Of a stretch of DNA of 64,000 nt, positions 2,062-59,848 are shown piece after piece. The number at the start of each line of letters is the position of its first letter. Position 1 is the first letter of the stretch. The position numbers were made by a program, and so were the translations under genes. The stretch covers positions 186,001-250,000 of the forward strand of contig NZ_VLKU01000002.1 in assembly GCF_007830335.1 (NCBI RefSeq), given 5' to 3'. Source of the stretch: Paracoccus sulfuroxidans (GTDB taxonomy: Bacteria > Pseudomonadota > Alphaproteobacteria > Rhodobacterales > Rhodobacteraceae). The notes under the pieces are model-generated. The model was not told where the DNA came from and did not search any database. It worked only from the letters and a program-made list of their open reading frames with translations.

Positions 2062-3584
<1,523 letters not shown>

Positions 3585-3585
3585 C

Positions 3586-4668
3586 TTAAACCCTTCCTGC
3601 GGTTGCCCGCCCTTCATTCCTGCCGCGCCAGCGCTGCCACGCGGACAGCCAGGCATCTGCAAAGCTTTTCACGTCCCGTTCGGACGTCGTCGGCCCGATC
3701 GAGACACGTATTGCATCGCCCGCCCTTTCCGGCGCGATCCCCATTGCCGTCAGCACGCTGCTGGCCCGTACCTTTCCCGAAGAACAGGCCGAGCCCGCCG
3801 AAACGGCAAAACCTGCAAGGTCCATCTGCATGACCTGAGTCTCACCCCGCCATCCGGGCGTAAGAATGGACAGGGTGTTCGGCAGGCGACGGCTCTCGCG
3901 CCCAGGGAATGTAACCATTTCCGCCCCGGTTTCCAGAGCGGCCATCAGTTTATCACGCAGTTCAGCCGTTTTTTCCCAGATTCCTTGATCCAGATCATTC
4001 TGCGCCGCTTTTGCCGCCGCTGCAAACCCCAGGATTCCGATCAGATTCTCGGTCCCCGCGCGGCGTCCCTGCTCTTGCCCGCCGCCCCGGATGCGGGCCT
4101 CGATCTCGGTCCCGCGGCGCAGGATCAGCGCGCCGATGCCGCGCGGCCCGCCCAGCTTGTGGGCCGAGACGATCCCGGCTTCGATCCCCAGCCAGTTGAA
4201 CGCGAAGGGGACCTTGCCGAAGGCCTGTGTCAGATCGCTGAGCGCCAGCCCCTGCGGCAGTTCCTGCATGACGCCGGTTTCCGAATTGGCCATCTGCAGC
4301 GCCGAGGCTGCCGGATCGCTGACGGTGACCGCACCCGAATGACCGACCTCAAGCGTGGGCTTGCACCAGGCCAGAACCGCCGGATGCTCGACCGCCGCGC
4401 AGTGGAATGCGCCCTCATCCGGCCCGCGCCCGGCCAGCGCCAGTGCCGCCGCCTCGGTCGCCCCTGAGGTGAAGATGACATCCGCCCCTTCCGCCCCAAG
4501 CGCCGTAGCGATCTCTTCCCGCGCCCGCTCGAGCGCCGTCTTGGCCGCCCGCCCCTCGGCATGGACCGAGGAGGGATTGCCGACGATCTCACTGGCCGCG
4601 ATCATCGCGTCGCGCGCCTCGGACCGCAGCGGCGTGGTCGCGTTCCAGTCCAGATAGACCCGGCTCAT
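3586..4668 (-). CDS. Class I (IscS/NifS-like) cysteine desulfurase
   Basis: PLP enzyme that takes sulfur from cysteine for cluster assembly. In the 360-residue sequence, His95 lies in the AAVEHPAVL segment, the PLP lysine is Lys171 ([10 protein letters not shown]), and the persulfide cysteine is Cys295 in [11 protein letters not shown], a short class I type active loop. It is somewhat shorter than E. coli IscS. It overlaps coaBC by four bases upstream and is followed after 1 nt by sufB, so it is the likely sulfur donor for this suf operon. No SufE or SufU partner gene is visible in the window. Confidence 0.9.
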
Positions 4669-55586: not shown

Positions 55587-55604
55587 GGGCGGCTTCGGCC
55601 GCCC
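55587..55604 (+). terminator. Rho-independent terminator after the aldehyde dehydrogenase gene
   Basis: Seven-base stem GGGCGGC/GCCGCCC closed by a TTCG tetraloop and followed by TTTCCTTT. It begins 9 nt after the stop codon at 55577 and separates this gene from the nrd promoter region. Confidence 0.82.
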
Positions 55605-55729
55605 TTTCCTTTCAAAGCACTGTCACGCCACGTCAGCGCCGGGCGCGCTGGCCCGGAAGGCGCGACTGTCCTACTGTGACTTAAAGGCCATGGCCGGAAC
55701 GTCACGGCCACCGGCGCCTAAATCCCTCC

Positions 55730-55776
55730 ACACAACATATTGACAAGACGTTACCGAAAACGTCTATTTATGGGGT
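55730..55776 (+). promoter_or_regulatory. nrd promoter with two NrdR-like boxes
   Basis: A sigma70-like promoter: TTGACA (55740-55745), 17 bp, TCTATT (55763-55768). Box 1 (55730-55745, ACACAACATATTGACA) agrees with about 12 of 16 positions of the NrdR consensus and covers the -35; box 2 (55761-55776) agrees less well and covers the -10. The boxes are 31 bp apart centre to centre, the usual spacing of NrdR pairs. A palindrome GACGTT-N6-AACGTC (55747-55764) lies between. Direct reading of the sequence; binding is inferred. Confidence 0.62.
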
Positions 55777-55940
55777 CTTGGTCCTCGGGGCGACTCGGGG
55801 TGAAGAGGGAAACCGGTGCAATGCCGGTGCTGCCCCCGCAACTGTAAACGGCAAGCAAAGCTGAAGATCCACTGGATGAAACCGGGAAGGACAGCCGAAG
55901 CGTTGAGCCGTGAGCCAGGAGACCTGCCAGGACGGAAGAC
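55775..55940 (+). ncRNA. Cobalamin (B12) riboswitch upstream of nrdHIEF
   Basis: The class signature is clear: GGGAAACCGGTGCAATGCC, CTGCCCCCGCAACTGTAA and the B12 box GAGCCAGGAGACCTGCC. A P1 helix forms between GTCTT...GTCC (55775-55784) and GGAC..AAGAC (55930-55940). A hairpin CCGTGC/GCACGG (55950-55966) and a long stem pairing GCAGG (55971) with CCTGC (56014-56018) lie before the nrdH RBS, giving an expression platform that can hide translation or stop transcription when B12 binds. Confidence 0.93.
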
Positions 55941-56041
55941 AGTACGAAACCGTGCGGTGGGCACGGAGACGCAGGTTTCGCGGGCCCCCGGCCCGTGGCC
56001 GTCGTCCCGCCCGCCTGCAAACGCAAAGGGACAATGAAGCG

Positions 56042-56263
56042 ATGACCATCACCGTCTACTCCAAACCGGCCTGCGTCCAATGCACCGCGACCACCCGCGC
56101 GCTGGATGCCAAGGGGCTGTCCTATGACGTCATCGACCTGACGCAGGACAGCACCGCCATGGAGAAGGTGACCGCGCTTGGCTATCGTCAGGCCCCCGTC
56201 GTCATCGCGGGCGAAGAACACTGGGCGGGCTTCCGTCCCGACATGATCGGCCGCCTGTCGTAA
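56042..56263 (+). CDS. nrdH: NrdH, glutaredoxin-like reductant of class Ib RNR
   Basis: A 73-residue redoxin with a CVQC active site (Cys11, Cys14) and the GFRPDMI C-terminal region typical of NrdH. It delivers electrons to the NrdE reductase subunit. AAAGGGA precedes the ATG at 56042. It is the first gene after the B12 riboswitch, and nrdI follows after 13 nt. The short frame beginning 55910 is riboswitch, not coding. Confidence 0.95.
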
Positions 56264-56276
56264 GGCAGGTCAAGCC

Positions 56277-56693
56277 GTGCTGGGACTGGTCTATTTCTCA
56301 TCGGTTTCGGGGAACACCGCCCGGATGGTGCAGCGCCTTCAGATGGGCGGGCTGCGCATTCCGGTGTCGCCTGCCGATCCGATGCCCCAGCCCGACGCGC
56401 CCTATGTGCTGATCTGCCCAACCTTTGCCGATGGCATGGGGCGTGGCGCGGTCCCCAAACGGGTGATCCACTTCCTGAACGACCCTGCCCGTCGCGCGCT
56501 GCTGCGCGGCGTCATCGCGGGTGGCAACCGCAACTTCGGCGCGACCTTCGCCCTTGCGGGCGATGTCATCGCGAAGAAATGCAATGTCCCGGTGCTCTAT
56601 CGCTTCGAGCTGGCCGGGACCGAAACCGACATTGCCCGCATTCGCGCGGGGTTAGCTGAATTCCGGGGGATGGAATGCTCGATAATGGCGTGA
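56277..56693 (+). CDS. nrdI: NrdI, flavodoxin-like activator of class Ib RNR
   Basis: A 138-residue flavin protein that helps assemble the dimanganese-tyrosyl radical cofactor of NrdF. FMN-loop residues appear in [16 protein letters not shown], and the [16 protein letters not shown] segment is typical. The start is GTG 56277. Its 3' end overlaps nrdE by 19 nt. Presence of NrdI marks the system as class Ib. Confidence 0.95.
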
Positions 56694-58801
56694 AGGCCGA
56701 GCTTGATTATCATGCGCTGAACGCGATGCTGAACCTCTATGACAGTGAGGGGCAGATCCGTTTCGATGCCGACCGCAAGGCGGCGCATCAGTATTTCCTG
56801 CAGCATGTGAACCAGAACACGGTCTTCTTCCATTCGCTGGACGAAAAGCTCGATTATCTGGTCGAGGAGGGCTATTACGAGGCGCAGGTTCTGGACCAAT
56901 ATTCCAAGAACTTCATGCGCCAGATCTGGGACGAGGCGTATCGCAAGAAGTTCCGCTTCCCGACCTTCCTCGGCGCGTTCAAATATTACACCAGCTACAC
57001 GCTGAAGACCCGCGACGGTCAGCGCTATCTTGAGCGCTATGAGGACCGCGTCGTCATGGTCTCGCTCGCCTTGGCGCGCGGCGATGAAAAGCTTGCAACC
57101 CGCTTTATGGAAGAGATCCTCTCGGGCCGGTTCCAGCCCGCGACGCCGACCTTCCTGAATGCCGGGAAGAAGTCGCGCGGCGAGCTGATCTCGTGCTTCC
57201 TGCTGCGCATCGAAGACAATATGGAATCCATTGGTCGCGCGATTAACTCGTCGCTGCAGCTTTCGAAGCGCGGTGGCGGCGTGGCGCTGATGCTGACCAA
57301 TATCCGCGAGGCCGGTGCGCCGATCAAAGGGATCGAGAACCAGTCCTCGGGCGTCATCCCGGTGATGAAACTGCTGGAAGATAGCTTCAGCTACGCAAAC
57401 CAACTTGGTGCACGTCAGGGCGCTGGCGCGGTCTACCTGAACGCCCATCACCCCGATATCCTGCGCTTCCTTGATACCAAGCGCGAGAATGCCGATGAAA
57501 AAATCCGCATCAAGACGCTGTCGCTTGGCGTCGTCATTCCGGATGTGACCTTCGAACTCGCGAAGAAGAACGAGGATATGTATCTCTTCTCGCCGCATGA
57601 CGTGCAGAAGGTTTACGGCGTGCCCTTCTCGGAAATCTCGGTCTCCGAGAAGTATCAGGAGATGGTGGACGACAAGCGCATCAAGAAGCGCAAGATCAAC
57701 GCCCGCGCCTTCTTCCAGACTCTGGCCGAGATCCAGTTCGAAAGCGGCTATCCCTATATCATGTTCGAAGACACGGTGAACAAGGCGAACCCGATCGACG
57801 GGCGCATCACCATGTCGAACCTCTGTTCGGAAATCCTGCAGGTGAACGAGGCGTCGGAATTCAACGACGATCTGAGCTATTCGCGCATGGGCACGGATAT
57901 TTCCTGCAACCTCGGCTCGCTGAATATCGCGGCGACGATGGACGGCCCGGATTTCGGTGCGACCGTTGAAGCGGCGATCCGCGCGCTGACCGCTGTCTCG
58001 GAAATGTCGGCGATTGATGCCGTGCCCTCGATCCGTCGCGGCAATGACGAGGCCCATGCCGTCGGCCTTGGCCAGATGAACCTGCATGGCTTCCTCGCGC
58101 GTGAGCGTATTCATTACGGCTCACCCGAGGGCGTTGAATTCACCAGCGTTTATTTTGCAGCGATTGCCTATCACGCGATCCGCGCCTCGAATCTGATCGC
58201 GCGCGAAAAGGGCGAGAGTTTCAAAGGCTTCGAGAAATCGAAATATGCCGATGGCACCTTCTTCGACAAATACACCGAACAGGACTGGCTGCCGGTATCC
58301 GAAGAAGTCACCCGGGTTTTTGACGGGATCACGCTGCCCTCGCGCGAAGATTGGGCAGAGCTTAAGTCCGACGTGATGGAATACGGGCTTTACAACCGCA
58401 ACCTTCAGGCGGTGCCGCCGACCGGGTCGATCAGCTATATCAACAACTCGACCAGCTCGATCCACCCGATCGTCGCGAAGATCGAAATCCGCAAGGAAGG
58501 CAAGATCGGCCGCGTATATTATCCGGCGGCCTTCATGTCGAACGACAACCTCGAATATTACCGCGACGCGTATGAGATCGGGCCGGAAAAGATCATCGAC
58601 ACCTATGCCGCGGCGACCGAACATGTCGATCAGGGCCTGTCGCTGACGCTGTTCTTCCCGGCAGAAGCCACGACGCGGGACATCAACAAGGCGCAGATCT
58701 ATGCGTGGAAGAAGGGGATCAAGACGATCTACTACATCCGCCTGCGCCAGACCGCGCTGGAAGGCACCGAGATTCAGGGCTGCGTGTCCTGCGCTCTGTG
58801 A
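56675..58801 (+). CDS. nrdE: Class Ib ribonucleotide reductase large subunit
   Basis: A 708-residue reductase subunit that makes deoxyribonucleotides. It lacks the N-terminal ATP-cone of class Ia, as usual for NrdE. Motifs: ISCFLL for the first active-site cysteine, NLCSEI and NLGSLNIA around the second, and a redox-active C-terminal CVSCAL tail. It pairs with NrdF and takes electrons from NrdH. A 75-nt gap with a repeat precedes nrdF. Confidence 0.97.
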
Positions 58802-58814
58802 GCCACGTCATGAC

Positions 58815-58855
58815 GCCGGGGGCTGTCTGCCCCCGGACCCCCGAGGATATTTTGA
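58815..58855 (+). repeat. GC-hairpin intergenic repeat, copy B
   Basis: Between nrdE and nrdF. Hairpin GCCGGGGGCTGTCTGCCCCCGG followed by ACCCCCGAGGATATTTTGA, matching the same order as copy A. It ends about 21 nt before the nrdF start. Confidence 0.72.

Positions 58856-59848
<993 letters not shown>

Follow-up and report, generated by a model that had tools for sequence, protein, structure and literature searches.

The nrdHIEF operon and its leader

The window considered here is a 64,000-nucleotide stretch of the Paracoccus sulfuroxidans genome (contig NZ_VLKU01000002.1, positions 186,001 to 250,000), in which a class Ib ribonucleotide reductase (RNR) operon, nrdH-nrdI-nrdE-nrdF, is preceded by a cobalamin (vitamin B12) riboswitch and, 5' of that, by a pair of NrdR-like boxes at the promoter (Table 1). 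The operon is very probably under two stacked controls, NrdR at the promoter and the B12 riboswitch in the leader, with a class II enzyme taking over when B12 is present.

The riboswitch matches the whole of the RF00174 model (1-189 of 189) with a score of 134.8 bits (gathering score 31.5), which bears out the preliminary description of this region, where a canonical cobalamin riboswitch had been placed between the promoter boxes and nrdH. Its L5 motif (0/19) and 3' core (0/17) are free of mismatches, and the single mismatch in its B12 box (1/7) is also present in several other high-scoring leaders. From its RNA family, the ligand would be adenosylcobalamin, and B12 would be expected to turn nrdHIEF off.

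NrdH, NrdI, NrdE and NrdF all exceed the NCBIfam class Ib cut-offs and lie in one row of genes (56042-59848). The preliminary description had given 55730-58801 for the boxes, riboswitch and nrdHIEF together; it was right about the class Ib operon and stopped short of its end, as 58801 is the end of nrdE and nrdF continues to 59848. The nearest solved chain to NrdF is NrdF2 (8j4x, E 1.1e-157, residues 10-323). Judging by its family, NrdF presumably contains a dimanganese-tyrosyl radical cofactor, and hence would use manganese. By eye, a three-codon frame (ATG AAG CGA, 56034-56045) can be seen directly before nrdH, with its TGA stop overlapping the nrdH start (ATGA overlap).

Table 1. Features of the nrdHIEF promoter, leader and genes (positions are those of the window)
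Feature	Position	Strand	Evidence or remark
NrdR-like box 1, ACACAACATATTGACA	55730..55745	+	16.1 bits (matrix from 74 other leaders)
Possible -35, TTGACA	55740-55745	+	By eye; overlapped by box 1
NrdR-like box 2, CGTCTATTTATGGGGT, weak	55761..55776	+	6.4 bits; 31 bp after box 1
Cobalamin riboswitch aptamer, RF00174	55762..55945	+	Rfam scan, 134.8 bits, E 9e-34
Possible -10, TCTATT	55763-55768	+	By eye; overlapped by box 2
L5 segment, GCCCCCGC	55832..55839	+	Read from sequence; complementary to L13
P13 hairpin, CCGUGC-GGUGG-GCACGG	55950..55966	+	Covariation
L13, GCGGUGGGC	55954-55962	+	Complementary to L5
GUCCC, possible strand hiding the ribosome-binding site	56004..56008	+	Alternative fold
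GCCCGCC, can pair with L13	56009-56015	+	Alternative fold; adjoins GUCCC
Likely nrdH ribosome-binding site, AAAGGGAC	56025..56032	+	Read from sequence
nrdH, glutaredoxin-like reductant	56042..56263	+	TIGR02194, 99 bits (cut-off 85.75)
nrdI, flavodoxin for class Ib assembly, GTG start	56277..56693	+	TIGR00333, 145 (cut-off 74.65)
nrdE, class Ib alpha subunit	56675..58801	+	TIGR04170, 1245 bits (cut-off 750)
nrdF, class Ib beta subunit	58877..59848	+	TIGR04171, 480 (cut-off 355)

Reductases and cobalamin genes in the genome

A Pfam search found three RNR large-subunit genes in the genome and no others, encoding NrdE, the class II enzyme NrdJ (PRK07562, 2181 bits, cut-off 1737) and, 765 residues long, a second reductase of class II type (TIGR02504, 595 bits, cut-off 400). 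The last of these (L016, 4745-7042, + strand) aligns with the B12-dependent NrdJ of T. maritima (1xje) through the NPCGE stretch, and is widespread in the genus beside NrdJ. A search of the genome for class III enzymes found no NrdD. The presence of NrdJ and the second TIGR02504 protein confirms the class II enzyme that had been predicted from the leader alone, and the cell, with only class Ib and class II enzymes found, seems to switch between a metal-dependent enzyme and a B12-dependent one for its deoxynucleoside triphosphates (dNTPs). There is a single copy of nrdR (TIGR00244, 159 bits, cut-off 124.65).

Four cobalamin riboswitches were found in the genome, including that of nrdH. The second lies 5' of cbtB/cbtA-like genes (named by eye), the third 5' of a DUF1636-like frame (also by eye), cobW and cobN, and the fourth 5' of an ATP-binding cassette (ABC) transporter, whose permease falls short of the cut-offs of BtuC and the other models that it matches. 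A search for nrdJ and cobalamin synthesis genes, which the preliminary description had proposed, thus yields both NrdJ and a riboswitch-led cobW/cobN group. The same description would have been undermined by a genome with no class II RNR or B12 uptake; class II is present, and uptake is represented only by the BtuC-like permease below cut-off.

Distribution of the riboswitch in Paracoccus

The genus sample comprised 125 genomes, 77 of which were called class Ib by their NrdI; 76 of the leaders were fetched and scanned with Rfam, and the window supplies the 77th. NrdJ was matched at a threshold of E 1e-100 in 103 of the 125 genomes, and the match exceeds the family cut-off in 94. A genome is described as having no class II match where there was no TIGR02504 match at E 1e-100, which is the case for ten class Ib genomes. 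RF00174 reached the gathering score in 33 of the 77 class Ib leaders (32 of the 76, and the window), marginally so in one of them (L121, genome G069, 39.1 bits).

The riboswitch is carried by 2 of 21 NrdJ-less class Ib genomes, compared to 31 of 56 with NrdJ (Fisher p 2.4e-4). Scoring the weak or fragmented NrdJ of G031, G067, G112, G113 and G173 as absent gives 4/26 versus 29/51 (p 5.8e-4). Both NrdJ-less bearers of the riboswitch (G116 and G063) have the second class II protein, and when any class II match is considered, the riboswitch is found in none of the ten class Ib genomes without one and in 33 of the 67 with one (p 0.0039). NrdJ was also matched in 47 of the 48 genomes without NrdI; the remaining one (G087, 81% complete) carries the second class II protein. 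The riboswitch cannot have been lost through loss of NrdJ alone, as 25 of the 56 NrdJ-bearing class Ib genomes are without it. The genus offers a set of natural controls, with class II present or absent and the riboswitch intact, damaged or missing at one and the same operon.

Several individual loci in the sample are worth recording. In G173 (C1:2963072-2966499), a class Ib genome with no riboswitch and one of the ten without a TIGR02504 match, NrdJ is in three pieces with a stop, which may be a real loss or an assembly error. Three cobalamin riboswitch matches lie within 1.1 kb by nrdHIEF in L169 of G021 (1-92 on the - strand, 208-399 and 880-1070 on the + strand), and two divergent, back-to-back cobalamin riboswitches are found in L164 of G029 (2102-2291, -; 2571-2751, +), one of them before nrdHIEF. 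A transfer-messenger RNA (tmRNA) gene is divergent from, and directly 5' of, the riboswitch-nrdHIEF operon in L159 of G007 (55-411, -), and the marginal riboswitch of L121 has a divergent thiamine pyrophosphate (TPP) riboswitch ~115 bases away (3511-3605, +).

Relatives beyond the genus

Relatives of NrdE were considered for the best 80 of 586 loci, among which the named relatives at 90% identity are all Paracoccus. Both riboswitch motifs were found by motif search 5' of nrdE in 46 of these 80, mostly in Rhodobacteraceae and Rhizobiales, and the same arrangement thus occurs in other Rhodobacterales and in Rhizobiales. An Rfam scan of 16 chosen loci placed RF00174 before nrdHIEF in 14, including Devosia, Pseudovibrio, Rhizobium, Ensifer and Lautropia (a betaproteobacterium), with a score of only 37.1 bits in L033; the two without it are both Pseudochrobactrum (L074 and L080). 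NrdJ was matched in 45 of 49 genomes with loci of this kind, the exceptions being those of L024, L027, L074 and L080, and L024 has kept its riboswitch (113.8 bits) though its genome is without an NrdJ match. One locus titled Nocardioides marinus (L038) has a riboswitch-nrdHIEF arrangement with an NrdE 83% identical to that of the window, reflecting either a mislabelled record or a transfer; other loci with actinobacterial titles among the best 80 do not have both riboswitch motifs.

Leader structure and expression platform

Between the aptamer and nrdH, the leader holds a P13 hairpin whose loop, L13, is complementary to L5. In 32 of the 33 riboswitch leaders the 19-base L5 motif differs at 0-3 positions, and in L121 at five. 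Covariation of P13 was examined in 24 of the 33, nine having been dropped because no anchor, or no motif behind an anchor, was located by the script. Across these 24 leaders, pairing at pairs 4-7 is seen in 98% of cells, compared to 23-53% when slid, and the pair at -5/+5 is seen as TA, TG, GC and CG. Both elements of an L5-L13 kissing-loop platform, the complementary loops and a covarying P13, are present.

How such a platform might act on nrdH is suggested by the bases that follow. GGGAC (56028-56032), within the likely ribosome-binding site, is complementary to the upstream GUCCC (56004-56008), which adjoins the stretch able to pair with L13. Shine-Dalgarno (SD) complementarity to the leader's own upstream strand exceeded that to swapped strands in 15 of 21 sequence clusters of riboswitch leaders (p 0.026) and that of shuffled SD regions in 14 of 21 (p 0.029), for stretches that were chosen after examples had been inspected. 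In riboswitch-less leaders the corresponding figures are 13/27 (p 0.86) and 10/27 (p 0.052). Hiding of the nrdH ribosome-binding site by B12 is plausible and moderately supported by these comparisons.

The promoter and its NrdR-like boxes

The published NrdR box consensus is acaCwAtATaTwGtg (PMC4009431). The boxes were scored with a matrix trained on 74 leaders of the genus outside the clade of the window, all of them homologous promoters, so that the score of the box pair is a measure of conservation and not of binding. The pair in the window scores 22.6 bits, a value reached by none of 300 dinucleotide shuffles (maximum 9.4), and nowhere in the whole 64 kb other than at the nrdH promoter does a pair reach 18 bits. 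When the consensus was used to search the 77 leaders with spacings of 18 to 49 allowed, 31 bp was the best-scoring spacing in 32, the commonest value. The promoter has two consensus-like boxes about three helical turns apart, the second of them weak. Of the two NrdR-like boxes in the preliminary description, the pair as such is conserved and box 1 is strong, while box 2 is weak in this clade. The match, together with the nrdR gene, suggests that NrdR binds at the nrdH promoter.

A consensus promoter scan of 55600-56100 found no sigma-70 site. The same matrix applied upstream of nrdJ and of the second class II gene gave best pairs of 10.8 and 1.2 bits respectively, which are unconvincing. A perfect inverted repeat, AGACGT-N8-ACGTCT (55746-55765), lies between the TTGACA and the possible -10, perhaps by chance; it can be ruled out as a conserved operator, as it is missing from the leaders of sister species.

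A model of dual control and its alternatives

The mechanism proposed is as follows. When dNTPs are sufficient, NrdR would bind the box pair and repress nrdHIEF. Adenosylcobalamin would bind the riboswitch and fix the L5-L13 kissing loop and P13, shutting nrdHIEF off, most likely through a freed strand that hides the ribosome-binding site. Without B12, L13 would pair with GCCCGCC (56009-56015), the hiding strand would be consumed and nrdH would be translated; with B12, the kissing loop would free the hiding strand and the ribosome-binding site would be covered. The cell would thus draw its dNTPs from the B12-dependent class II enzyme or enzymes when B12 is at hand, and from class Ib otherwise. 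This dual input, with switching between B12-independent and class II enzymes, is what the preliminary description had put forward, and it gains support from the class II and nrdR genes and from the lack of a riboswitch in all ten genomes without a class II match.

A number of results pull the other way. Of the 67 class Ib genomes in which class II was matched, 34 lack the riboswitch, which is therefore dispensable. G031 has a riboswitch of 88.8 bits despite an NrdJ in pieces, in a poor assembly (79% complete, 6% contamination), and moving it to the class II-less group gives 1/11 versus 32/66 (p 0.020). With relatedness controlled, on a rapidly built NrdE tree in which only 17 of the 74 inner branches have good support, the supported independent pairs number four for NrdJ (2.8 agree, 0.2 disagree, median p 0.25) and five for any class II enzyme (1.5 agree, 0 disagree, not significant), the association failing to reach significance because the independent pairs are too few. 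In the window alone, SD pairing shows no excess (-14.5 versus -14.6 swapped), and the folding of the entire leader is on a par with that of shuffles (z 0.00), which is uninformative. Box 2 scores 6.4 bits in the window, 1.5 in G170 and 0.1 in G031. Finally, in the leaders of G170 and G031, which are the nearest relatives of the window by NrdE (96% identity for G170), alignment shows L5, P13 and L13 retained and the B12 box altered. Overall, the genus pattern fits what a B12 switch predicts, with a trend that agrees when relatedness is controlled, but is not proof of it.

The most serious alternative concerns the manner of shut-off, which may occur mainly by transcription termination, or by Rho or RNase, instead of by hiding of the ribosome-binding site. 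The unexceptional SD pairing of the window itself and a GC-rich hairpin, GGGCCCCCGGCCC, between P13 and nrdH would suit such a mechanism, but no + strand site resembling an intrinsic terminator was found in 55600-56100 (by a scan blind to Rho), and group-level SD complementarity is confined to riboswitch-bearing leaders. We consider this a real possibility, if not the favoured one.

It is improbable that the riboswitch of the window is itself in decay and now of little use. Among the nearest relatives, the nrd riboswitches with altered B12 boxes score 76.8 bits in G170 (L171) and 88.8 bits in G031 (L175), and there is turnover across the genus, with at least ten changes of riboswitch state on the NrdE tree (at least seven for NrdJ and eight for any class II enzyme) and so many class II-bearing genomes without it; against this, the copy in the window has the high score and nearly unblemished motifs described above. 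It seems to be intact within a clade where decay is apparently under way.

That the promoter boxes are the operator of another regulator, such as one reading the inverted repeat between them, is very unlikely, as the perfection of the repeat and the weakness of box 2 are outweighed by the absence of the repeat from sister leaders and by the recurrence across the genus of a 31-bp box pair resembling the published consensus (PMC4009431).

The distance from box 1 to nrdH is 306-359 nt in all 33 riboswitch leaders and 162-289 nt in 40 of the 44 without, so shortening is common where the riboswitch is lacking. Among the 15 of these 44 leaders in which box 1 lies at least 268 nt before nrdH, a search for divergent riboswitches at E<=5 found only L156, at 31.3 bits, just below the 31.5 cut-off; the remaining 29 were scanned at the gathering score only. 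In G170 both class II enzymes are matched despite the altered B12 box, and G070, which has no class II match, retains P13 and L13 within an otherwise decayed leader. A doubtful proposal is that the ancestor of the genus already had the riboswitch, which then disappeared wherever the class II enzymes had gone, with some lines losing the ligand-binding core before P13 and L13, which would leave ligand-deaf leaders that may keep another regulatory role. If this were true, the leader would record for each species whether class Ib has to give way to an enzyme that uses B12. In any case, the variation within Paracoccus is suited to asking how a riboswitch is maintained or worn down.

Comparison with known systems

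A B12 riboswitch is reportedly found on the class Ia nrdABS operon of Streptomyces, in work attributed to Borovok in 2006. As in Paracoccus, a B12-independent class I RNR operon carries the riboswitch; unlike the class Ib nrdHIEF of the window, nrdABS is class Ia and belongs to a different phylum. Streptomyces also has a class II RNR (PMC4009431), and some RNRs of other microorganisms are described as being under B12 riboswitches (Vitreschak 2003 and Borovok 2006, cited in PMC5962746). Among the literature matches listed, none has a cobalamin riboswitch 5' of nrdHIEF; older comparative genomics lay outside this coverage and may well hold an earlier alphaproteobacterial prediction, and hence we make no claim of priority.

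The promoter resembles the NrdR regulon with its tandem boxes (Rodionov and Gelfand 2005, as described in PMC4009431 and PMC4428469) in having two consensus-like boxes before nrdHIEF and an nrdR gene in the genome, with a spacing of 31 bp compared to the 32 bp given for mycobacterial nrdH (PMC4009431, PMC4428469). It differs in the weak box 2 of the clade and in the riboswitch downstream. An L5-L13 kissing-loop expression platform has been described for cobalamin riboswitches (PMC9600662), and the window shares with it the complementary L5 and L13 and the covarying P13, whereas its SD-pairing strand is a prediction. In Caulobacter crescentus, RF00174 riboswitches are found on metE and btuB, and B12 represses the B12-independent metE (PMC6538847). 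The type of riboswitch and the B12-independence of the target enzyme are the same in Paracoccus, where the target is a reductase operon and repression is predicted from sequence. Control of a B12-independent reductase by a B12 riboswitch is a known principle, to which the nrdHIEF case adds another member.

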